The position numbers and the translations under genes are program-made. Shown piece by piece: positions 2,835 through 45,218 of a stretch of DNA of 64,000 bases. Origin of the DNA: Planomonospora sp. ID67723 (GTDB lineage: Bacteria > Actinomycetota > Actinomycetes > Streptosporangiales > Streptosporangiaceae); NCBI RefSeq assembly GCF_015711605.1, contig NZ_JABTEZ010000002.1:248001-312000 (forward strand). The letters are read 5' to 3'. A model generated the notes under the pieces. It ran no database searches, was not told the DNA's origin, and saw only the letters and a program-made list of their open reading frames with translations. Every line of letters begins with the position of its first letter. The stretch's first letter is position 1.

Positions 2835-5800
2835 TCAGGCCCGCAGGCGCAGGCCCCTCGGGGTCGGGTGGAAACCCGCGGCCTCCAGGGCGGCGGCGAG
2901 CGGGGAGTCGCCGACGGCGGCGCCGTCGGCCCGCTCCACCGTCAGCTTCCCCAGTGCGCCGTCGCGCACGGCCAGCGCGAGCGCGTCCACCGCGGGCTGG
3001 AGGCGGTCGTCGTCGGTGAAGGACAGCAGCGTCCTGCCGCCGCGCTCGACGTACAGGACCAGGTGGCCGTCGACCAGCACCACCAGCGCTCCCGCCTTCC
3101 TTCCGGGTTTGTGGGACACGTCCCCGGGGTGGGCGGGCCAGGGCAGCGCCGCGCCGTACGGGTTGGCCGGGTCCGCCGCCGCCAGCACCACGGCTCGCCG
3201 GACCGCGCCGCCCCGGGCGTGCCGCAGGCCCGCGGCCCCCGGGGCGGGGAGGCGGGGGGCCTCCCACGGGGCCGTGCCGGGGGCGGGAGGACGAGGGGTG
3301 CTCCACGGATCCGGCTCGGGCGGCGGCGGCGCGGTCGCCCGCATGCGGTCGACGGCCCCCGGCAGCGCGAACTGGGCCCCGCCCAGACCCTCGACGAAGT
3401 AACCGCGACGGCACCGGCCGCTCTCCTCGAACGCGCGCAGCACCTGGTAGACGGCGGCGAACCCACCCGGCAGCCGCTCGGCCGTGACCGCGCCCCTGGT
3501 CACCACGCCGTGCCGCTCCAGCAGCACCTCCGCCTGGGCGTGGGCGCGCTGGGTGGCGTCCTCGGCGGGCGGGGGCAGCAGCCACCAGCGCCCGCCCACG
3601 GTCGGAGGGCCGCTCCGGGTGGGCAGCACGGCCCGGCGTCTGCGGGTGGAGGCGGGACGGTGTGCGGGCCGTCCCGTGCCGAGCGTCGCACGGAGCGGGG
3701 CCAGCGTGTCGCCGGTGATCCGCCCCGCCCACACCAGGTCCCACACCGCCGCCACGAGCGTCGCGTCGTCGGGGGCCGCACCTGCCGGAACCGCGGGTCT
3801 CCTCCCGCCCGCCGGGGGCGTCGCGCCACCGGGGTCCGGGATCGCCCGCCCGGCCGTCCCCCCGCCGACGGGCGCTCCCTCGCCGGGCCCCGGGAAGCGG
3901 GAGGCGGCGAGGACCGCGCCGACGCGGGTGCCCAGCTCGCGGAAGAACAGGGCGCCCCCGCCGCCGAGGGCCTCCAGGACCGCCTGGTGCACCGGAGTCA
4001 TGGTGATCTCCAGCGGGTCGGGCAGCAGCAGCGGGGCGGTGTCGGCGAAGTAGAGGGACAGCCAGCCGTCCCCGCCGGGCAGCGACCCCTGGCCGGCCCA
4101 GACGACCTCGCCGGAGGAGGTCAGCTCGTCGAGCAGGGACGGGTCGTAGCCGGGCACGCGCGAGGGCAGGACCAGCGTCTCCAGCGCCGAGGCGGGCACC
4201 GCCGCGCCTTGGAGCCGCTCGACGGCGTCCACCAGGGCGTCGATCGGCGGTCTGCCCGCGCGCGGCGCACCGGTGATGCCGTGCCAGGCGGGCGAGAAGG
4301 CGGCCAGCGTCTCGGCGGGGACCGGTTCCACCTCCTTGCGGAGCCGGGCCAGGGACCTGCGGCGCAACATCCGCAGCACCCCGGCGTCGCACCACTCCTC
4401 GCCCCGGCCGCCGGGCCGGAACTCGCCGCTCACCACCCGGCCGGAGGCGGCCAGCCTGCGCAGCGCGTCGGCGACGACGGCCGGGCCGAGGCCGAAGCGG
4501 GCGGCGGCCGTGCTCGCGGGGAAGGGGGTGCGCGTGCGGGCGTGCCTGGCCAGCAGGTCGCCGAGCGGGTCGTCCACCGGCTCCAGGAACACGTGCGGCA
4601 CGCCCACCGGGGGCGGCACGCCGAGCGCGTCGCGCAGCCGGGCGGCGTCCTCGATCGCGGCCCACTGCTCCTGCCCGGCCACCCGCACCCGGATCGCGCG
4701 CCGGGCCGCCTCCAGACCGGCCAGCCACGCCGGATCGCCCTCGCGCAGGCTCACGTCCTCGGCGAGCAGGGGGCCGTGGGAGCGGAGCAGGTCGGCGAGG
4801 TCCTCGGCGTCGCGGAGCGGCCGGTCCAGCCGGGCCAGCTCGCGCTCGGTGTCGGCGATCACGTCGGGGTCGAGCAGCTCACGCAGGTCGGCCTGGCCGA
4901 GCAGCTCGGCCAGCAGGCTCGTGTCGAGCGCGAGCGCCTGGGCGCGGCGCTCGGCCAGCGGGGCGTCCCCCTCGTACATGAACGCGCCGATGTAGTTGAA
5001 CAGCAGGGACGCCGCGAACGGCGAGGCCTGGGAGGTCTCCACCTCGACCAGCCGCACCCTCCGCGCCGCGATGTCCCGCATCAACCGGACCAGCCCCGGC
5101 ACGTCGAACACGTCCTGCAGGCACTCGCGCATCGTCTCCAGCACGACCGGGAACGAGCCGTACCGGGCGGCGACGCCCAGCAGGTGCGAGGCCCGCTGCC
5201 GCTGCTGCCAGAGCGGCGTCCGCCTGCCCGGCGAGCGGCGCGGCAGCAGCAGGGACCGGCCGGCGCACTCACGGAAGCGGGCCGCGAACAGCGCCGAGCC
5301 GCCGAGCTCCTCGGTGACGATCCGCTCGATCTCCTCGGCCTCGAAGACCGCGACGTCCGACGGCGGGTCCGACAGGGTGTCGGGGATGCGCAGCACGATG
5401 CCGTCGTCGGAGTGCACGGCCTGCACGTCGACGCCGTAGCGCTCGCGCAGCCGCCGCCCGATCGCCAGCGCCCACGGGGCGTGCACGCGCGCGCCGTACG
5501 GCGAGTGCACGACGACCCGCCAGTCGCCCAGCTCGTCGTGGAAGCGTTCGACCAGCAGCGTGCGGTCGTCCGGGACGTATCCGGTGGCCTCGTGCTGCTC
5601 GGCCAGGTAGGAGAGCAGGTTGGCCGCGGCGAACCCGTCCAGGCCCGCGGCCCTGACCCGTGCCAGCGCCGCCTCGCCGCCGGGACCGGTGCCCGCCTCC
5701 GACAGCTCGCGGAGGAAGGCGCCGATCGCCCGGCCCAGCTCGGCCGGGCGGCCCGGCGTGTCACCGTGCCAGAAGGGCAGCTTGCCCGGCCGTCCGGGGG

Positions 5801-7832
5801 CGGGGGAGACCAGCACCCGGTCGGCGGTGATGTCCTCGATCCGCCAGGAGGTCGCGCCGAGCACGAAGACGTCCCCGGCGCGGGACTCGTAGACCATCTC
5901 CTCGTCCAGCTCGCCCACCCGCGAGGCCTTCTCCCCGGCGAGGAAGACGCCGAACAACCCCCGGTCGGGGATGGTGCCGCCGCTGGTCACGGCCAGCCGC
6001 TGAGCCCCGGGACGCCCCTGGAGCACCCTCGTGACCCGGTCCCAGACGATGCGCGGGCGCAGTTCGGCGAACTCCTCGCTCGGGTAGCGCCCGGCGAGCA
6101 TGTCGAGCGTCGCCTCCAGCGCGCTGCGGGGCAGCGTGCGGTACGGCGCGGCGCGGCGGACCACGGTCTCCAGCTCGTCGACGGTCCACTCGTCCAGCGC
6201 GGTCATCGCGACGATCTGCTGGGCGAGCACGTCGAGCGGGTTGCGGGGGTAGCGCAGCTCCTCGATCTCGCCCCGCTTCATCCGCTCGGCCACCACCGCC
6301 GTCTGGACCAGGTCGCCGCGGTACTTGGGGAAGATCACGCCGCGGGAGACCGCGCCCACCTGGTGCCCGGCCCGGCCGATCCGCTGCAGGCCGCTGGCCA
6401 CGCTCGGCGGCGCCTCCACGCAGGCCACCAGGTCGACCGCGCCCATGTCGATGCCGAGCTCCAGGCTGGAGGTGGCCACCACGGCGGGCAGCCGCCCCGA
6501 CTTGAGCGCCTCCTCGATCTGGGACCGCTCCTCCTTGGAGACCGATCCGTGGTGCGCCCGCACGACCTCCGGGACCGCCCCCCGGCTCGCCCCGGCCTGG
6601 GCCATCATCGCGGCCGGGGTGGAGACCGAGGCGGGAGGCGGGGGGAAGCCCTCCGCCCAGTGGACCGGCGCCCCGGAATCCCCGCGGTCCGGCGCGCCCT
6701 CCCACCCGGCGTGGCCGCCCTCCGCGCCGCTCCGTCCGGGATCGCCGCCGGGCCCGGTCGCGCCCTCCCCGGCACGCCGTTCCCAGGCCAGCTCGTTGAG
6801 GCGGGTGCACAGCCGCTCGGCCAGCCGCCGGGAGTTGGCGAACACGATCGTCGAGTCGTGCTCGCCGATCAGGTCCAGGAGCCGTTCCTCGACGTGGGGC
6901 CAGATGGACCGCCGGGCCGGCTGCTCGGTCAGCCACGCGTCGTCGTCCTGGCGGGGGCGGGGGGCGCTGTCGAGCTCGGTCATGTCCTCGACCGGGACGA
7001 CGACCTCGACCTCGATCACTTTCTCCGACGGCGGCTGCACCACGACCGCCGGGCGCGGTCCGCCGAGGAACTCGGCCACCTCGCTCACCGGCCGCACGGT
7101 CGCCGAGAGGCCGATGCGCTGGGCGGGCCGGGGCAGCAGGGCGTCGAGCCGCTCCAGGCTGAGCGCCAGGTGCGCGCCGCGCTTGGTGGAGGCCACCGCG
7201 TGCACCTCGTCGACGATCACGGTCTCCACGCCGCGCAGCGCCTCGCGGGCCTGGCTCGTCAGCAGCAGGAAAAGCGACTCCGGAGTGGTGATGAGGATGT
7301 CGGAGGGCCGGGCGGCGAACCTGCGCCGCTCCTCGGCGGAGGTGTCGCCCGACCGGATCGCCACAGAGATCACCGGCTCGGGCAGCCCGAGCAGCCGGGA
7401 GGTCTGCCGCAGCCCGGTCAGGGGGGCGCGCAGGTTGCGCTCGACGTCCACCGCCAGGGCCTTGAGCGGCGAGACGTAGAGAACGCGGCACCGCTCCGTC
7501 CGCTCGTCGTCCTTCGCGCCCGCGCGGCCCTTCACCCGCCTGCGGCCGTCCACGCGACCGGCGGTCCCCGCGGCCCTCCCCCGTCCGGCCGGCTCCTCCG
7601 GCCCGGCGGGCTCCATCTGCTCGGCGGCCAGCCGGTCGAGCGACCAGAGGAAGGCCGCCAGTGTCTTGCCCGACCCGGTCGGCGCGACCACCAGGGTGTT
7701 GTCGCCCCGGGCGATCGAGGTCCACGCCCCCTCCTGGGCGGCGGTGGGCGCGGCGAAGGCCCCGGTGAACCACTGCCGGGTCACCGGGGTGAAGTGGTCG
7801 AGCGCTGATCCGGTCACCGTTCCATGGTGCAC
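2835..7832 (-). CDS. lhr: Lhr-type ATP-dependent helicase (Lhr with C-terminal domain)
   Basis: Large superfamily 2 helicase of 1665 residues. Motif I (APTGSGKT) is near residues 50-57, the DEVH box near 207-212, then SAT in motif III and the second RecA-like domain with HHGSVSKEERSQIEEALKSG and QRIGRAGHQVG. The long C-terminal half is typical of full-length actinobacterial Lhr, a 3'-5' DNA/RNA helicase acting in DNA repair. The start shown is GTG at 7832; a second GTG at 7818 lies just before the conserved LDHFTP segment and is equally possible, since neither has a clear ribosome binding site. A Gly/Pro-rich insert of about 80 residues between helicase motifs and another near residues 1290-1340 look like lineage-specific low-complexity loops. 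It is divergent from the decarboxylase gene at 7950. Confidence 0.93.
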   Translation of the reverse strand: MHHGTVTGSALDHFTPVTRQWFTGAFAAPTAAQEGAWTSIARGDNTLVVAPTGSGKTLAAFLWSLDRLAAEQMEPAGPEEPAGRGRAAGTAGRVDGRRRVKGRAGAKDDERTERCRVLYVSPLKALAVDVERNLRAPLTGLRQTSRLLGLPEPVISVAIRSGDTSAEERRRFAARPSDILITTPESLFLLLTSQAREALRGVETVIVDEVHAVASTKRGAHLALSLERLDALLPRPAQRIGLSATVRPVSEVAEFLGGPRPAVVVQPPSEKVIEVEVVVPVEDMTELDSAPRPRQDDDAWLTEQPARRSIWPHVEERLLDLIGEHDSTIVFANSRRLAERLCTRLNELAWERRAGEGATGPGGDPGRSGAEGGHAGWEGAPDRGDSGAPVHWAEGFPPPPASVSTPAAMMAQAGASRGAVPEVVRAHHGSVSKEERSQIEEALKSGRLPAVVATSSLELGIDMGAVDLVACVEAPPSVASGLQRIGRAGHQVGAVSRGVIFPKYRGDLVQTAVVAERMKRGEIEELRYPRNPLDVLAQQIVAMTALDEWTVDELETVVRRAAPYRTLPRSALEATLDMLAGRYPSEEFAELRPRIVWDRVTRVLQGRPGAQRLAVTSGGTIPDRGLFGVFLAGEKASRVGELDEEMVYESRAGDVFVLGATSWRIEDITADRVLVSPAPGRPGKLPFWHGDTPGRPAELGRAIGAFLRELSEAGTGPGGEAALARVRAAGLDGFAAANLLSYLAEQHEATGYVPDDRTLLVERFHDELGDWRVVVHSPYGARVHAPWALAIGRRLRERYGVDVQAVHSDDGIVLRIPDTLSDPPSDVAVFEAEEIERIVTEELGGSALFAARFRECAGRSLLLPRRSPGRRTPLWQQRQRASHLLGVAARYGSFPVVLETMRECLQDVFDVPGLVRLMRDIAARRVRLVEVETSQASPFAASLLFNYIGAFMYEGDAPLAERRAQALALDTSLLAELLGQADLRELLDPDVIADTERELARLDRPLRDAEDLADLLRSHGPLLAEDVSLREGDPAWLAGLEAARRAIRVRVAGQEQWAAIEDAARLRDALGVPPPVGVPHVFLEPVDDPLGDLLARHARTRTPFPASTAAARFGLGPAVVADALRRLAASGRVVSGEFRPGGRGEEWCDAGVLRMLRRRSLARLRKEVEPVPAETLAAFSPAWHGITGAPRAGRPPIDALVDAVERLQGAAVPASALETLVLPSRVPGYDPSLLDELTSSGEVVWAGQGSLPGGDGWLSLYFADTAPLLLPDPLEITMTPVHQAVLEALGGGGALFFRELGTRVGAVLAASRFPGPGEGAPVGGGTAGRAIPDPGGATPPAGGRRPAVPAGAAPDDATLVAAVWDLVWAGRITGDTLAPLRATLGTGRPAHRPASTRRRRAVLPTRSGPPTVGGRWWLLPPPAEDATQRAHAQAEVLLERHGVVTRGAVTAERLPGGFAAVYQVLRAFEESGRCRRGYFVEGLGGAQFALPGAVDRMRATAPPPPEPDPWSTPRPPAPGTAPWEAPRLPAPGAAGLRHARGGAVRRAVVLAAADPANPYGAALPWPAHPGDVSHKPGRKAGALVVLVDGHLVLYVERGGRTLLSFTDDDRLQPAVDALALAVRDGALGKLTVERADGAAVGDSPLAAALEAAGFHPTPRGLRLRA

Positions 7833-40000: not shown

Positions 40001-40268
40001 GGACACCGGGACGGCGGGGACGGACGTGTCGGCGCAGCGGGCCGTCGTCGAGCTGTCCGGGCCGGGGGTCCGCGACGTGCTCATGACCGGCTGCCCGATC
40101 GACCTGCATCCGGAGGTCTTCACCACCGGCTCGCACACGCAGACCCTGCTGGCCCGCGCTCCGGTCGTGCTGCACCGGACCGGGCCGGACGCCTACCGCG
40201 TGCTCGTCCGGGCCTGTCTCGCGGGGTACCTTGCCGAATGGCTGCTGGACGCCTTGGAGGGACTGTGA
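37005..40268 (+). CDS. soxA: Sarcosine oxidase alpha subunit fused to gamma subunit (SoxA-SoxG)
   Basis: 1087 residues from ATG 37005. Residues ~1-100 are a ferredoxin-like domain without cluster Cys. The NAD/FAD domain begins with VAGAGPAGLAAALAAGEAG near 120, and a GcvT-like THF-binding domain starts near 571 (MDASTLGKIEVRGRDAGEFLDR) and ends near 885. After a ~45-residue Pro/Gly/Ala/Asp-rich linker, residues ~932-1087 (SPLAEFTGRF...VTIRELPFLPMREIM) match the SoxG gamma subunit, which is normally a separate ~200-aa gene. It is one open frame, so the alpha and gamma subunits are fused. Substrate: sarcosine to glycine with methylene-THF and H2O2. No separate soxG is nearby. The last two codons overlap the next gene (GTGA). 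Confidence 0.9.
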   Translation: MRRETGGRIDRSRTLRFSFDGEELTGHPGDTLASALLGCGVRIVGRSVDLGRPRGIFTAGAEEPNALLRVGDEPMVAATTVELRDGIEAWSLQGRGRLDPAAPPGEARHDKAHLHCDVLVAGAGPAGLAAALAAGEAGARVVLLDDQPEPGGDLLGGRLLLDGAPAPEWVSSVAVRLAALPEVRVLPRTTAVGYHDHNYVVAVEERDANRGRESGGRRLWHLRARRVVLATGAHERPVAFPGNDRPGVMLASAARTYANRYGVLPGRRAVVFTCTDSGHEAARDLAAAGVEIVEIVDPRRDGAVITGTLADAEGILTGVAIGDRTVGCDLLAVSGGWNPAVHLFSQSQGRLRFDDALQAFVPDRSAQAERSAGACRGVYGTAAAIADGFAAGSWAAGSRAAGQAFHVPECDEPEPRPPAALWAVPGAEAFVDLQRDVTVADVERATGAGMRSVEHVKRYTTAGTGADQGKTSGATAVGVVAGLLGAAPGQVGTTTFRPPYTPVAFGVLAGRERGALSDPVRVTAMHGLHLARGAVFENVGQWKRPRYFPLGGESMEEAVERERRAARTGVGAMDASTLGKIEVRGRDAGEFLDRVYTNMFSTLPVGSCRYGVMCGADGMVLDDGVTTRLARDRYLATTTTGNAAAVFDRLEEWRQTEWPHLDVSLTSVTDHWAVVAVVGPRARPVARALVPGVDFDDFPFMTYRESGPARIFRISFSGELAYEINVPRWYGAALWEAALELGAVPYGTETMHVLRAEKGFAIVGQETDGTVTPQDLGMSWIVSTRKPDFIGKRSHARPDTARPDRRRLVGLVPDDPAETLTEGAQLVAAPGGGRMIGHVTSAYPGVALAMAAGVAIGDRLVAFDGRRIPVTVVSPVFHDPENARRDGDPQDPSPRSGAPAGRPGTGSDALREIPEPGDAADPVPEWARGDRAASPLAEFTGRFAAASSPAVTIRELPFLPMREIMGGEAGEGLRLGPDWWLAVGEPPAGGGPGDRPAGADTGTAGTDVSAQRAVVELSGPGVRDVLMTGCPIDLHPEVFTTGSHTQTLLARAPVVLHRTGPDAYRVLVRACLAGYLAEWLLDALEGL

Positions 40269-41119
40269 ACGTCGCGGTGATCGGCGGAGGCCGGATGGGG
40301 GCGGGGATCGCCCAGGTGTTCCTGGCCACGGGGGCGCATGTCACGGTCGCCGAGGCGGGCGAGCGCGCGTCGGCCGCCGCGCGCGAGCGGATCGCGCGCG
40401 GGCTGCGGGTCGCGGAGGAGAAGGGCGGCCTCGCGAGGAAGGACGGTCCCGGGGACGGCGGCTCCCCGGCCGAGGAGGCGCTGGCGCGGCTGGTGACCGG
40501 TCCGGTGCCCGCGGGCGCCGACCTGGTGGTGGAGGCGGTGCCGGAGGACGCGGCACTCAAGGTCCGGGTCCTGGCCGAGGCGGAGAAGGCCGCCGGACCG
40601 CACGCCGTGCTGGCCACCAACACCAGCTCGCTCTCCGTCGGGGAGCTCGCCGCGGGGCTGGAGCGTCCCGAGCGCTTCCTCGGGCTGCACTTCTTCAACC
40701 CGGTCCCGGTCCAGGAGCTCGTGGAGATCGTCACGGCCCCCGCGACCTCGGCGGAGACCCTCGCCCGGGCGAAGGAGTGGGTGGCCGGACTCGGCAAGAC
40801 CGGAGTGGTGATCAGGGATTCGCCCGGGTTCGCCACCAGCCGCCTGGGTGTGCTGGTCGGGCTGGAGGCGATCCGCATGGTCGAGGAGGGCGTCGCCTCG
40901 GCCGAGGACATCGACCGGGCGATGGTGCTCGGCTACCGCTACCCGATGGGTCCGCTCCGCCTGGGCGACCTGGTCGGGCTGGACGTGCGGCTGGCCATCG
41001 CCGAGTACCTGTGCGAGCGGCTCGGTCCCCGCTTCGAGCCGCCGGAGCTCCTGCGCCGCAAGGTCGCAGCCGGTGAGCTGGGACGTAAAACCGGGCGCGG
41101 CTTTTACGACTGGGATTGA
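40265..41119 (+). CDS. 3-Hydroxyacyl-CoA dehydrogenase
   Basis: 284 residues from GTG 40265, which overlaps the soxA stop by 4 bp. NAD motif VIGGGRMGAGIAQVF; catalytic region GLHFFNPVPVQELVEIV with the His of 3-hydroxybutyryl-CoA dehydrogenases; a C-terminal DSPGFATSRLGVLVGLEAIRMVEEGVAS dimerisation domain; ends RKTGRGFYDW. It resembles 3-hydroxybutyryl-CoA dehydrogenase more than carnitine 3-dehydrogenase, which usually has a HPFNPP motif. Its tight coupling to sarcosine oxidase is unexpected. Confidence 0.88.
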   Translation: MNVAVIGGGRMGAGIAQVFLATGAHVTVAEAGERASAAARERIARGLRVAEEKGGLARKDGPGDGGSPAEEALARLVTGPVPAGADLVVEAVPEDAALKVRVLAEAEKAAGPHAVLATNTSSLSVGELAAGLERPERFLGLHFFNPVPVQELVEIVTAPATSAETLARAKEWVAGLGKTGVVIRDSPGFATSRLGVLVGLEAIRMVEEGVASAEDIDRAMVLGYRYPMGPLRLGDLVGLDVRLAIAEYLCERLGPRFEPPELLRRKVAAGELGRKTGRGFYDWD

Positions 41120-41159: not shown

Positions 41160-41858
41160 GTGAGAGACGGCGTAAAGGCGCAGGTGGGGCGGGGACGAGG
41201 CGCGCTCGTCGCGGTGCTGGCGATCGTGCTGGCGGGCTGCGGCCCCGCGGGGAAGATATCCGACGAACCCGCGAGCGGCGAGCGCGGCGAACAGGGCAGG
41301 TCCGCCGCCGAGGCGCTCAAGGACCTGGAGAAGCTCCCGGTCAAGGGCCGCGGCCCGAAGACCGGCTTCGACCGGGACGAGTTCGGGCCCGCGTGGGCGG
41401 ACGTCGACCACAACGGCTGCGACACCCGCAACGACATCCTCAAACGGGACCTGAAGGACGAGACCTTCAAGAAAGGCACCCACGACTGCATCGTGCTCAC
41501 CGGGATCCTGGAGGATCCCTACGGCGGCAAGACCATCGAGTTCGAGCGCGGCGAGAAGACCAGCATGGAGGTGCAGATCGACCACGTGGTCGCGCTCTCC
41601 GACGCCTGGCAGAAGGGAGCCCGGCAGCTCAGCGCCGCCGAGCGCAGGGAACTGGCCAACGACCCGCTGAACCTCCTTGCGGTGGACGGCCCGCTGAACA
41701 GCCAGAAGAGCGACGCCGACGCGGCGACCTGGCTGCCGCCGCGCCGTGCCTACCGCTGCCCCTACGTCTCCCGCCAGATCTCAGTGAAGATCAAGTATGA
41801 GCTCTGGGTCACCGCCGCGGAGAAGGCCGCGATGGAGCGGGTGCTGAAGTCCTGCTGA
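41160..41858 (+). CDS. Secreted HNH (DUF1524-type) endonuclease lipoprotein
   Basis: 232 residues from GTG 41160. The hydrophobic N-terminus ends in the lipobox VLAGCG, so it is predicted to be lipid-anchored outside. The nuclease region includes EVQIDHVVALSDAWQKGA, with the HNH His in DHV and the later NDPLNLLAV and NSQKSDAD motifs. DUF1524-type exported nucleases degrade extracellular DNA or defend against it. The next gene is tRNA-Sec, unrelated. Confidence 0.85.
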   Translation: MRDGVKAQVGRGRGALVAVLAIVLAGCGPAGKISDEPASGERGEQGRSAAEALKDLEKLPVKGRGPKTGFDRDEFGPAWADVDHNGCDTRNDILKRDLKDETFKKGTHDCIVLTGILEDPYGGKTIEFERGEKTSMEVQIDHVVALSDAWQKGARQLSAAERRELANDPLNLLAVDGPLNSQKSDADAATWLPPRRAYRCPYVSRQISVKIKYELWVTAAEKAAMERVLKSC

Positions 41859-41941: not shown

Positions 41942-42034
41942 GGAGGCGTTTGGGTTCCTGGTGGTCCTCCTGGTCTTCAAAACCAGTGGCGCCGAGCACC
42001 TCGGCGCGGCGGGTTCGATTCCCGTCCGCCTCCG
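41942..42034 (+). tRNA. selC: tRNA-Sec (anticodon TCA)
   Basis: 93 nt with the marks of a selenocysteine tRNA: an extended acceptor stem (GGAGGCG with CGCCTCC, followed by discriminator G); an anticodon stem CTGGT/ACCAG with loop CTTCAAA giving UCA; a long variable arm (GCGCCGAG-CAC-CTCGGCGC) and a T arm GCGGG-TTCGATT-CCCGT. The last acceptor pair next to the T stem is T-C, a small imperfection. CCA is not encoded. It is charged with Ser by SerRS, converted by SelA and delivered by SelB. selB lies 140 bp downstream. Confidence 0.95.
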
Positions 42035-42054
42035 CAGACCAGCACCCGGGATGG

Positions 42055-42183
42055 ATGGAAGTGGATCAACGTCGCGCTGTGACGCGCACCGACGTCCTGC
42101 TCACCGGCCGGCGGCTCGCTGCGGCACAGGAGCGCCTCGACCGTGATCCGGCCGAGGCCGCCGCGGAGCGCGCATGCGAGTGA
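42055..42183 (+). pseudogene. selA N-terminal remnant between tRNA-Sec and selB
   Basis: An ORF of 42 codons, from ATG 42055 to TGA 42183. Residues 7-36 (AVTRTDVLLTGRRLAAAQER) match the start of actinobacterial L-seryl-tRNA(Sec) selenium transferase SelA, which normally begins with an RTDxLLxxxRLxxAxxRL pattern in the same place between the tRNA gene and selB. The remaining ~390 codons of SelA, including the PLP lysine, are gone. The stub ends by overlapping the selB start. This suggests an internal deletion that left the 5' end joined to selB. The family match is from memory. Confidence 0.65.
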
Positions 42184-43913
42184 TCGCCACCGCCGGGCAC
42201 GTCGATCACGGCAAGTCGACGCTGGTCCGGGCGCTCACGGGGATGGAGCCCGACCGCTGGGCGGAAGAACGCCGCCGCGGGATGACCATCGACCTCGGGT
42301 TCGCCTGGACCGCCCTGCCCTCCGGCGAGCGGGTCGCGTTCGTCGACGTCCCCGGGCACGAGCGGTTCGTCACCAACATGCTGGCCGGTGTCGGGTCCTG
42401 CCCGGCGGTGATGTTCGTGGTGGCGGCCGACGCGGGTTGGCAGGCCCAGTCCGCCGAGCACCTGGCGGCGCTGGACGCCCTGGGAGTACGGCACGGCCTG
42501 CTCGTCGTCACCCGCTCCGATCTCGCCGATCCGGCCGAGGCCCGCCGGCAGGCGTACGCCCGTCTGGCGGGCACGAGCCTGGCCGGCATCGACGCCGTCG
42601 CCGTGAGCGGGCTGACCGGAGACGGCCTGCCGGACCTGGCGGCCGCCCTTGACCGCGTCCTGTCCGCGCTCCCCGAGCCCGACCGGGAGGCGCCCGTCCG
42701 GCTGTGGATCGATCGCGTGTTCACCGTCGCCGGGGCGGGCACGGTCGTCACCGGGACGCTCGCTCAGGGCACTCTCGCCGTGGGCGACGAGCTGGTCGCG
42801 GGGGCCCAGCGCGTGCGGGTCCGGGGGCTGCAGACCCTCAACGAGCGGACCGATCGGGTGCACGCGACGGCGCGGGTCGCCGTCAACCTCCGGAGTACCG
42901 GCAGGAGCGCGCTCTCGCGCGGTGCGACCTTGCTGACGCCCGGCGCGTGGTCGGCCACGGACGTCGCCGACGTGCGCCTGGAACCGGCGGCGGCGCCGCA
43001 GGGCGATCTGGTCCTGCACATCGGGTCGGCGGCGATGCCGGCCCGGCTGCGCCCTCTGGGCTCCCCGGGTGACCTCGCCCGGATCTCCCTCGCCAGGCCG
43101 GTGCCGCTGCGTGTCGGCGATCGTGCGCTGCTGCGCGACCCCGGCCGTCGCTCGATCGTCGCCGGGGTCCGCGTCCTCGACGTCCGCCCGCCCCCGCTGC
43201 GCCGCCGGGGAGCCGCCGCGGCTCGGGCGGCGCAGCTCGCCGGGGTGGCCGCCCCCGCCGCGGCCGACCTCCTGCGCTGGCACGGACTGCTCACCGGGGC
43301 GGATCTGACCGCGATGGGCTGTCCGCCCGGCGGCCGTCCGGTGGCCGGAGACTGGTTCGCCGACCCCTCTCACTGGTCGGCGCTCCAGCGACGGCTCGCC
43401 GCGCTGGACCCCGGGCTCACGGTCGACGCCGCCGCGGCCCTGCTCGGTCTCCCCGACCGGAAACTCGCCGAGGCGCTCGTCGCGCCGCCGCTCACCGTCA
43501 GGAACGGGCGCATCCAGCCCATCGCCGCCGCACCGCCCCCCGCCGTGGCGGCGGTGGCCGCCGAACTGGCCGAGCGGCCCTTCCACGCCCCCTCCGCCGA
43601 GCGGCTGGCCGAACTCGGCCTGACCGGCAGGACTCTGGCGACGGTCACCCGGTCCGGACTGCTGCTGTCGATCGCCAAGAACGTCGTCCTGCTCCCGGAG
43701 GCTCCCGAGGCGGCCGCGGCCATACTTCGCCGGCTTCCCGGGCCGTTCACCGTCGGCGACGCCAGGGCGGCCCTGGGCACCAGCCGCCGCGTGGCCGTAC
43801 CGCTTCTCGAATACCTCGACGCACGCGGCCTGACCCGGCGCATCGACAACGAACGGCGCGTCTGCCCGGAGTCTTCCCCGCCCGATCCCTCCGGGCCGGG
43901 CAAGCGCCCGTAG
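42174..43913 (+). CDS. selB: Selenocysteine-specific elongation factor SelB
   Basis: 579 residues. GTPase motifs: GHVDHGKST (G1, near 8-16), RRGMTIDLGF (G2), DVPGHERF (G3) and TRSDL (a variant of NKxD, with TRSD). Elongation-factor domains 2 and 3 follow. The C-terminal ~200 residues are winged helices that bind the SECIS hairpin in Sec mRNAs. Apparently intact. Its ATG lies 10 bp before the end of the selA remnant. It needs Sec-tRNA from SelA, which is not intact here. Confidence 0.93.
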   Translation: MRVIATAGHVDHGKSTLVRALTGMEPDRWAEERRRGMTIDLGFAWTALPSGERVAFVDVPGHERFVTNMLAGVGSCPAVMFVVAADAGWQAQSAEHLAALDALGVRHGLLVVTRSDLADPAEARRQAYARLAGTSLAGIDAVAVSGLTGDGLPDLAAALDRVLSALPEPDREAPVRLWIDRVFTVAGAGTVVTGTLAQGTLAVGDELVAGAQRVRVRGLQTLNERTDRVHATARVAVNLRSTGRSALSRGATLLTPGAWSATDVADVRLEPAAAPQGDLVLHIGSAAMPARLRPLGSPGDLARISLARPVPLRVGDRALLRDPGRRSIVAGVRVLDVRPPPLRRRGAAAARAAQLAGVAAPAAADLLRWHGLLTGADLTAMGCPPGGRPVAGDWFADPSHWSALQRRLAALDPGLTVDAAAALLGLPDRKLAEALVAPPLTVRNGRIQPIAAAPPPAVAAVAAELAERPFHAPSAERLAELGLTGRTLATVTRSGLLLSIAKNVVLLPEAPEAAAAILRRLPGPFTVGDARAALGTSRRVAVPLLEYLDARGLTRRIDNERRVCPESSPPDPSGPGKRP

Positions 43914-43922
43914 CCCGGCCGG

Positions 43923-45218
43923 TCAGGCCGATGCCCCCGCCACGGCCGCCACGTTCATGCGGACGATCTCAAGGGCGAGACCGAGGTCGATGTGGGCAAG
44001 GGTGTCGTCGGCGGTGTGGACGTTCTTGTTGCCGCCGTCGGCGCCCTCGATGGTGAGGACGGCCGGGATCGCGGCGTCGATGAACGGTACGTGATCGCTG
44101 TTGAACGGCTGGAGCGACTGCTGCACCGCCAGCCCGGTGTAGGTGCCCGCCGCCGCGGCCAGGTCGTCGATGAGCCCCTGGGAGAGTGCGGCGCCTTCGA
44201 GCAGCACGGTCGGCGTCGCCGTGTTGAGCGTCGCGATCATGTCCATGTTGACGACCGCGCGGATGCGGGCGGCTTCGGCGGGGTCCAGCCCCGCGACGTA
44301 CCGCCTGCTGCCGAACAGGCCCTGCTCCTCGCCGCCGAAGAGGACCAGGCGCAGGTCGTGGCCGGCCTCGTGCCCGGCGAGCACGCGCGCGATCTCCAGC
44401 AGGCCCGCCGCGCCGCTGCCGTTGTCGTCGGCGCCGGGAGCCGGGGCCGACGGGCCGCCGCGCAGGTTGACCGAGTCCAGGTGCGCGGTGACCATGACGG
44501 TGCCGCGGGCGTGGCCCGGCGCCGTCCGTTCGGCGACGACGTTGTGGCTCCGCCCGGATCCGACGGCGATCGGGACCAGTTCCACGGTGTAGCCGAACTC
44601 CCGCAGCCGATCCCCGGCCGTGGTCGCCGCCGCGTGGAAGCGGTCGCTCAGCGAGTGGCGGGTGCCGAAACCCACCAGCTCCCCGAGGAAGCCCTGGTAG
44701 GAGTCCCCGGAAACCTGGTCCACCAGGGCCTGGATCCGCGGGACCGGCGCGCGGGCGGCCGGCGTCACGGTGCGGAAGACCACGGCGCCGGCGGGCACCG
44801 GCTGGATCCTGTAACAGGCGTCCTCACCGGACGGGATCCGCCCGAGCCGTCCCCGATCGACGCCGACCACGAGGTAGCGGCCCTTGTCGACCAGCACGGG
44901 GACGTCGGGATGCTCGTGCTGGAACACGCGCCCCACCTGGGTGACCAGGAACAGCTCCCCGTCCGGCCCCGGCGGGGGGCGGTCCTGCAGGACGAGCCCG
45001 TTCGAACGGGCCCGGCTGTGCGCGGACGCCCAGAGCTCGTCGTCCCCGGTCCAGTAGAGGACGGTGTCGTCGAGCCGGAGCCAGTCCAGCCCGGGCGACG
45101 CGATCCGCGCCGTGGCGGAGTCCGGGTCCGCCGGCACCTTCACGATGCCCGCCCTCACGGCTCTCGCCTTGACAGTGCCTTGCCTCATCGGACCCCCGTG
45201 GTCGTTCGCCGACGTCAT
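43923..45218 (-). CDS. M28 family metallopeptidase without signal peptide
   Basis: 431 residues from ATG 45218. The C-terminal ~230 residues contain the full M28 di-zinc site: His in TAHLDSVN, Asp in GADDNGSG, Glu in GGEEQGLFGS, Asp in VNMDMIA and His in VHTADDT. The first ~190 residues are a beta-rich domain of unknown role. No signal peptide or membrane segment is seen, though most M28 aminopeptidases with this layout are secreted. It overlaps the small gene upstream by 4 bp and is the last of three genes with the M43 protease. Confidence 0.88.
   Translation of the reverse strand: MTSANDHGGPMRQGTVKARAVRAGIVKVPADPDSATARIASPGLDWLRLDDTVLYWTGDDELWASAHSRARSNGLVLQDRPPPGPDGELFLVTQVGRVFQHEHPDVPVLVDKGRYLVVGVDRGRLGRIPSGEDACYRIQPVPAGAVVFRTVTPAARAPVPRIQALVDQVSGDSYQGFLGELVGFGTRHSLSDRFHAAATTAGDRLREFGYTVELVPIAVGSGRSHNVVAERTAPGHARGTVMVTAHLDSVNLRGGPSAPAPGADDNGSGAAGLLEIARVLAGHEAGHDLRLVLFGGEEQGLFGSRRYVAGLDPAEAARIRAVVNMDMIATLNTATPTVLLEGAALSQGLIDDLAAAAGTYTGLAVQQSLQPFNSDHVPFIDAAIPAVLTIEGADGGNKNVHTADDTLAHIDLGLALEIVRMNVAAVAGASA

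Follow-up and report, generated by a model that had tools for sequence, protein, structure and literature searches.

The window, by which we mean the whole stretch of DNA analysed (64,000 nucleotides of the Planomonospora sp. ID67723 genome), carries a tRNA-Sec gene (selC) with the anticodon UCA, followed on the same strand by a short open reading frame and by selB, the gene of the selenocysteine-specific elongation factor (Table 1). The genes of a GmrSD_C-domain protein and a 3-hydroxyacyl-CoA dehydrogenase lie upstream of them, and that of an M28 peptidase lies downstream on the opposite strand. The tRNA-Sec and the full-length SelB had both been recognised in a preliminary description of this DNA made from the letters alone, and both are borne out: the former by ARAGORN and by Rfam, where it gives the single RF01852 match above the gathering score in the genome, and the latter by its TIGR00475 score and by the succession of the Pfam domains GTP_EFTU, GTP_EFTU_D2, Beta-barrel_SelB and SelB-wing_3. 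This is the only full-length SelB in the genome, the remaining matches being partial and at most 36% identical. The short frame between the two genes starts with GTG and ends with a TGA that overlaps the start of selB.

Table 1. Location of the genes and features discussed in the text, in the window (first six lines), elsewhere in the same genome and in other loci.
Feature	Location	Strand	Evidence or remarks
3-Hydroxyacyl-CoA dehydrogenase	40238-41119		Upstream of tRNA-Sec
GmrSD_C-domain protein	41160-41858		Upstream of tRNA-Sec
tRNA-Sec (selC), anticodon UCA	41942..42035	+	ARAGORN; Rfam RF01852, 74.4 bits (gathering score 47)
Predicted selA fossil, 40-codon in-frame fusion	42061..42183 (GTG at 42061, TGA at 42183)	+	Pairwise scores against native SelA; C-terminal resemblance; shared stop
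selB, 579 aa	42174..43913	+	TIGR00475, 283.5 bits (cut-off 242.25)
M28 peptidase	43923-45218	Opposite	Downstream of selB
Intact selA	G000:C1:568005-569045		PF03841, 346 bits; no stops; 447-aa ORF
selD	C2:1547156-1548070		390.8 bits
UGA membrane gene, copy 1	C2:1542711-1543415		3.7 kb from selD
UGA membrane gene, copy 2	C3:851245-851946		Profile search
Rhodanese-like gene beside selB	L050-L053, L055, L056: about 5736-6128		
Rhodanese-like gene beside selB	L054, L057, L058: about 3549-3998		
tRNA-Sec-like, anticodon ACA	L070:3884-3976		
tRNA-Sec-like, anticodon ACA	L019:1358-1451		
tRNA-Sec-like, anticodon ACA	L021, L022:1357-1450		
tRNA-Sec-like, anticodon ACA	L032:3341-3434		

The short frame had been described as a stub of selA, 42 codons long. 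Its identity as a remnant stands, while its length is 40 codons. The alignment to SelA proposed at the same time gave a divided answer: the profile search was blank (no Pfam or NCBIfam match at E<=10, as expected for so short an ORF), whereas pairwise alignment scored far above shuffled sequences. With its 40 codons the frame is not a full-length PLP enzyme and is homologous to SelA as a remnant. Against the SelA N-termini of three intact operons, those of Microtetraspora sp. NBRC 16547 (L049) and of two Nonomuraea (L050 and L052), the BLOSUM62 scores were 87, 88 and 89, with 50, 46 and 48 as the best of 2000 shuffles each, and the DNA scores were 58, 70 and 63, with 30, 30 and 38 as the best of 300 each. 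For none of the eight SelA N-termini tried did any of 2000 shuffles reach the score of the fossil. At the other end, the residues AAAERACE resemble the end of native SelA (e.g., AAAVERACT in L050), and the stop codon is common to the fossil and to native selA in the relatives; the DNA match of this end is short, 29 against L049 and L050 with shuffles reaching 25-26, and for L052 it does not exceed them (27 and 27). The lack of profile matches is what could be said for a chance frame unrelated to selA, an explanation to which we attach practically no probability, given the outcome of the shuffles, the position of the frame where the relatives have selA, and the stop shared with the native gene. 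Judged by these comparisons, the ORF is a true selA fossil, in which about the first 30 and the last 8 codons of the gene appear to have been joined in frame, the 5' part being, on the alignments, the firmer half of this claim. Since the fossil carries the native start, the native end and the same stop, the middle of selA would have been lost without a shift of frame.

The intact order tRNA-Sec-selA-selB is found in L049, L050 and L052, where the inferred GTG of selA lies 27-30 nt past the tRNA-Sec gene. The window retains this order of the sister species, with tRNA-Sec and selB intact, as in the bacterial selC-selA-selB operon, but differs from the latter in that native selA is represented by the 40-codon fusion, and the intact selA and selD are found at separate loci. 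The preliminary description regarded such an arrangement as a rare intermediate state; it is not unique, for it recurs in four Nonomuraea loci (L051, L053, L055 and L056): native selA is gone from all of them, tRNA-Sec is 59-134 nt from selB, and a selA 77-81% identical to that of our genome lies upstream on the other strand. Their remnants are of other lengths and retain the same frame, which weakly hints at the retention of a lead-in ORF; the hint is weak because a TGA inside codons 3-4 of selB also closes the frames in selA-less loci, and because these loci are related to one another and L055 lacks the native start. Translation of the fossil may lead into that of selB, which would account for its retention. 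PMC8124441 describes a remnant tRNA-Sec within selB in Sinorhizobium and others and discusses the possible coupling of such a fossil to the next ORF. There, as here, the fossil of one sel gene is retained inside the sel operon, but that gene is tRNA-Sec in the former case and selA in the latter. A stub also precedes selB in a Sphaerisporangium MAG (L048), and its DNA matches that of the window stub no better than shuffles do (31, shuffle best 34). One more selA without the middle, matching the profile at 1-83 and then at 276-366, was observed at G150:C7:168702-169238 (L269, L271), adjoining a second SelB-type match just below the cut-off (G095, same coordinates); by its profile match, this copy appears to be another selA fossil produced by internal deletion.

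As to the possibility, also raised in the preliminary description, that selA resides elsewhere, it proved to be correct. The genome, 8.34 Mb in 9 contigs and 99.83% complete, contains on contig C1 an intact selA, its sole selA match in the profile search and the very finding that the preliminary description itself had named as refuting its reading. The encoded protein has at 278 the motif SGDKLLGGPQ, which presumably plays a role in PLP binding. The selD gene, the search for which had likewise been proposed, is present on contig C2, so that the bacterial Sec-decoding set of selA, selB, selC and selD is complete. A full-profile selA match free of stops was found in all 14 genomes searched, with two matches each in G151, G153 and G159, and the further middle-less one in G150.

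The fossil scores 66 against the SelA of its own genome, below the 87-89 obtained with native SelA of other species, and it is nearer to the latter in DNA as well as in protein. In a tree of 83 SelA rows, from which four rows interrupted by stops, as well as short hits and duplicates, had been removed beforehand, the selA of this genome groups with the Nonomuraea copies of the L051/L053/L055/L056 type (100/99) and is next joined by Streptosporangium L057 (99/93), while the native clade stands apart (100/100). From the proximity of the fossil to the native SelA of others and from this placement, the best reading appears to be that a divergent second selA made the native gene superfluous and that the latter was then deleted, with tRNA-Sec, selB and selD still in use. 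The same two observations, the fossil being nearer to foreign native SelA and the tree keeping the selA groups apart, make it rather unlikely that the C1 gene is the operon's own selA relocated. Relocation or an old paralogue nevertheless stays compatible with the tree, since AU tests rejected neither the placement of this genome's selA inside the native clade (p 0.063, the native-clade group taking in L028 and L267) nor a topology uniting both selA groups on one side of a branch (p 0.37); besides, none of the genomes examined was shown to possess both selA types together. A divergent rhodanese-like gene (L001:3145-3567; PF00581, 41.5 bits) adjoins the C1 selA, and rhodanese-like genes are neighbours of selB in 9 further loci of Streptosporangiaceae, among 110 other sources searched; their product is a possible selenium-handling partner.

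The usual target of Sec insertion is FDH-N. In this genome no TIGR01553 match is over the cut-off (best 3.9e-26), whereas FDH-N over the cut-off was found in 10 of 15 genomes in one search and in 9 of 12 in another, in several cases with an in-frame TGA. The absence here of the enzyme usual in relatives was counted against our main explanation. No in-frame stops were seen in the 13 TIGR01591 matches listed for the genome either, and formate dehydrogenase was dropped as a Sec target. The proposed search for UGA-containing genes thus failed for FDH-N with a SECIS but succeeded otherwise, yielding two membrane protein genes with a UGA and a SECIS-type hairpin (TGA at L167:14272 and L315:9386). 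The first was among the 23 candidates of a scan for TGA codons with coding signal on both sides, performed on 2.05 Mb, a quarter of the genome. In a control, the scan recovered 7 of 10 FDH loci; of the others, L141 has TGA and is a true miss, L144 has TGC, and L145 was unreadable. The membrane gene ranked last of the 23 and owed its selection solely to its reappearance when relatives were scanned in the same way. Its product is a membrane protein of about 235 aa with the UGA in AGFSLSGSV-U-SLNSA.

A profile built for this protein family (A1) gave 49 matches in 43 of 150 genomes of the bacterial family. All 49 have an in-frame TGA (one has two), and in all 30 loci read the TGA stands at the motif site. 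In a draw from the whole phylum, profile A4 matched 38 of 396 genomes with 41 matches, of which 30 were read as loci; two were unreadable, and the remaining 28 had UGA in 23 cases (including the second copy of this genome) and Cys in 5, which means that Sec/Cys pairs exist among the homologues. The family is associated with SelB: among the SelB matches listed, taking a match that starts at model position 2 as presence, 41 of 43 carriers possess it vs 47 of 107 other genomes (Fisher 5e-10), and carrier G027 also has SelB, raising the count to 42 of 43; by the curated cut-off only, the figures are 29/43 and 29/107 (p 6e-6). A weak match (45 bits) at L317:7700 in G115 is a divergent relative with SPUGLSMAG and a UGA, and a plasmid tblastn retrieved one Nonomuraea record, unannotated at the match.

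According to the rule given in PMC13188914, a bSECIS has a loop of 3-9 nt with G in its first two places and a stem of 4-16 bp, 16-37 nt from the UGA. The hairpins of the membrane family fit this rule as stated there, the energy limit aside: in 30 of 30 loci the first loop base is at index 35, counted from the U of the UGA, and the loop reads GGUYY in 28 and AGGUU in 2, on stems of 5-8 bp. In the FDH genes of relatives, a GGUCU loop lies at +21 on stems of 6-7 bp (10/10). By a generic hairpin test, at least 5 G-C pairs are present in 50 of 53 UGA members, vs 14.3% of 20,442 TGA triplets, and in 1 of 5 Cys forms. Over both strands of the 2.05 Mb, just 5 of 40,527 TGA triplets have, at a distance of 16-37 nt, a GGUYY loop closed by a stem of at least 7; of these, only the TGA of the membrane gene lies in a frame that shows coding signal both before and after it. 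In an alignment of 25 distinct hairpin sequences, pairing holds in 91.4% of the cells, both sides vary in 4 of the 7 pairs, and the covariation value of 0.380 compares with 0.181 for shuffled and at most 0.128 for slid alignments; neither the number of pairs varying on both sides, which was as high in 110 of 500 shuffles, nor that of pair types (431 of 500) is above shuffles. In eight sequence pairs, the 16 codons past the UGA contain 0-5 third-position changes, and the rest of the frame downstream has a third-position excess. If the UGA were a normal stop, followed by a separate gene or dead sequence, one would hardly expect every A1 match to continue past it, some distant homologues to replace it by Cys, the hairpin to covary, third positions to be in excess downstream, or nearly all carriers to possess SelB, and we hold this explanation to be very improbable. 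The UGA membrane proteins are, by these sequence features, strong candidates for Sec-containing proteins.

Taken together, these data make us quite confident that native selA underwent an in-frame internal deletion after a divergent selA had taken over, and that the Sec trait should be alive, the genes of SelA, SelD, SelB and tRNA-Sec being present along with UGA/hairpin targets. In the course of events that we propose, the tRNA-Sec-selA-selB operon of the window would have lost the middle of selA after the second gene took over, with the two termini of the original selA left as an ORF still running into selB; the C1 SelA would convert Ser-tRNA-Sec to Sec-tRNA-Sec with selenophosphate from SelD, and SelB would deliver the latter to the hairpin-followed UGA codons of at least two membrane-family genes. 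The preliminary description had also considered that the trait is being lost, or that SelB with Ser-tRNA-Sec places serine at UGA. The destroyed selA of the window and the missing FDH-N agree with this, as does the only genus mate examined (G058), in which SelB-like matches do not exceed 36% identity, no FDH-N match reaches the cut-off and a UGA membrane gene was not found; the Sec trait thus seems not to be uniform within the genus. However, with full selA and selD elsewhere in the genome, and with two UGA genes to decode, whose SECIS-type hairpins change slowly in relatives, both proposals become highly unlikely. What looked like the loss of Sec is better read as the replacement of one selA by another, and when a gene is absent from its own operon, the whole genome should be searched before the trait is called lost.

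DsbD and CcdA have two conserved transmembrane Cys. The membrane family resembles their transmembrane domains in weak profile matches and in an SP(U/C) motif near the N-terminus, but it lacks the second conserved Cys, the Sec/Cys column being the sole invariant Cys-type column of the alignment, and mostly stays below the Pfam cut-offs. DsbD_2 (PF13386) matches 12 of 21 aligned members at E<=0.1 (best 2.1e-6) and DsbD_TM (PF02683) 6 of 21 (best 3.8e-6); among the matches listed, L339 is over the DsbD_2 cut-off (28.2 vs 24.9) and the rest are below it or unmatched. Both copies of our genome have no DsbD-type Pfam match, four Streptosporangiaceae members are without a match of any kind in Pfam at E<=10 and in NCBIfam at E<=1, and all 10 family proteins run against NCBIfam stay below its cut-offs. 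The predicted structure is poor (pLDDT 61), and of the 108 PDB matches that it returned at E<=10, not one reached E<=0.001; profile searches of PDB sequences returned nothing or two chance-level matches, and a regular-expression look for two-fold symmetry yielded nothing usable. On the basis of the motif and the profile matches, the family is probably distantly DsbD/CcdA-like. Table 1 of PMC13188914 counts 119 prokaryotic selenoprotein families and subfamilies, with which ours shares the in-frame UGA, the bSECIS-type hairpin and the Sec/Cys pairs, but no row of that table fits it by name or motif. A published description of the family was not found in the open-access literature, preprints excluded, and we regard it as a strong candidate for a hitherto unrecognised family of selenoproteins.

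The neighbours of the membrane gene were counted in clustered flanks of 38 loci, some genes being held twice; as the flanks are short, the counts are lower bounds. At least 19 loci contain a membrane-anchored CxxC protein, thioredoxin-like by eye and with no Pfam match over the cut-off, and at least 13 a Cys-rich protein whose start is of the Tat type; the one in this genome matches TIGR01409 (19.4 over 16.7 bits). MauE-type proteins also occur (three tested, all over the cut-off): the gene directly downstream of the C2 UGA gene encodes MauE (PF07291, 57.8 vs 27 bits), and the copies in L055 and L048 each have one MauE gene close by (41.9 and 52.2 bits, respectively). By analogy with the roles of MauD and MauE, the membrane protein may act as a thiol/selenol electron carrier for the disulfide chemistry of an exported protein. 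We tentatively propose, with somewhat more doubt than conviction, an undescribed phylum-wide family of DsbD-like selenoproteins that would act with MauE and thioredoxin-like partners on the disulfides of a Tat-exported Cys-rich protein and would, in place of FDH, keep the Sec trait here, the selA remnant serving as a coupling ORF for selB. The UGA-interrupted family offers a testable answer to why Sec is kept without FDH-N in some actinomycetes and, if confirmed, would add a Sec-bearing relative to the DsbD/CcdA electron carriers.

Several other loci have, near selB, tRNA-Sec-like genes with the anticodon ACA (RF01852, 66.8-71 bits), which would read UGU. PMC7609411 (citing Mukai 2016) reports tRNA-Sec with sense anticodons. 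That the ACA tRNA-Sec of N. wenchangensis reads UGU in FDH-N was considered and dropped, the TGT at the site lacking the +21 GGUCU hairpin. In L018, a 96-nt tRNA with the anticodon ATA is called Tyr.
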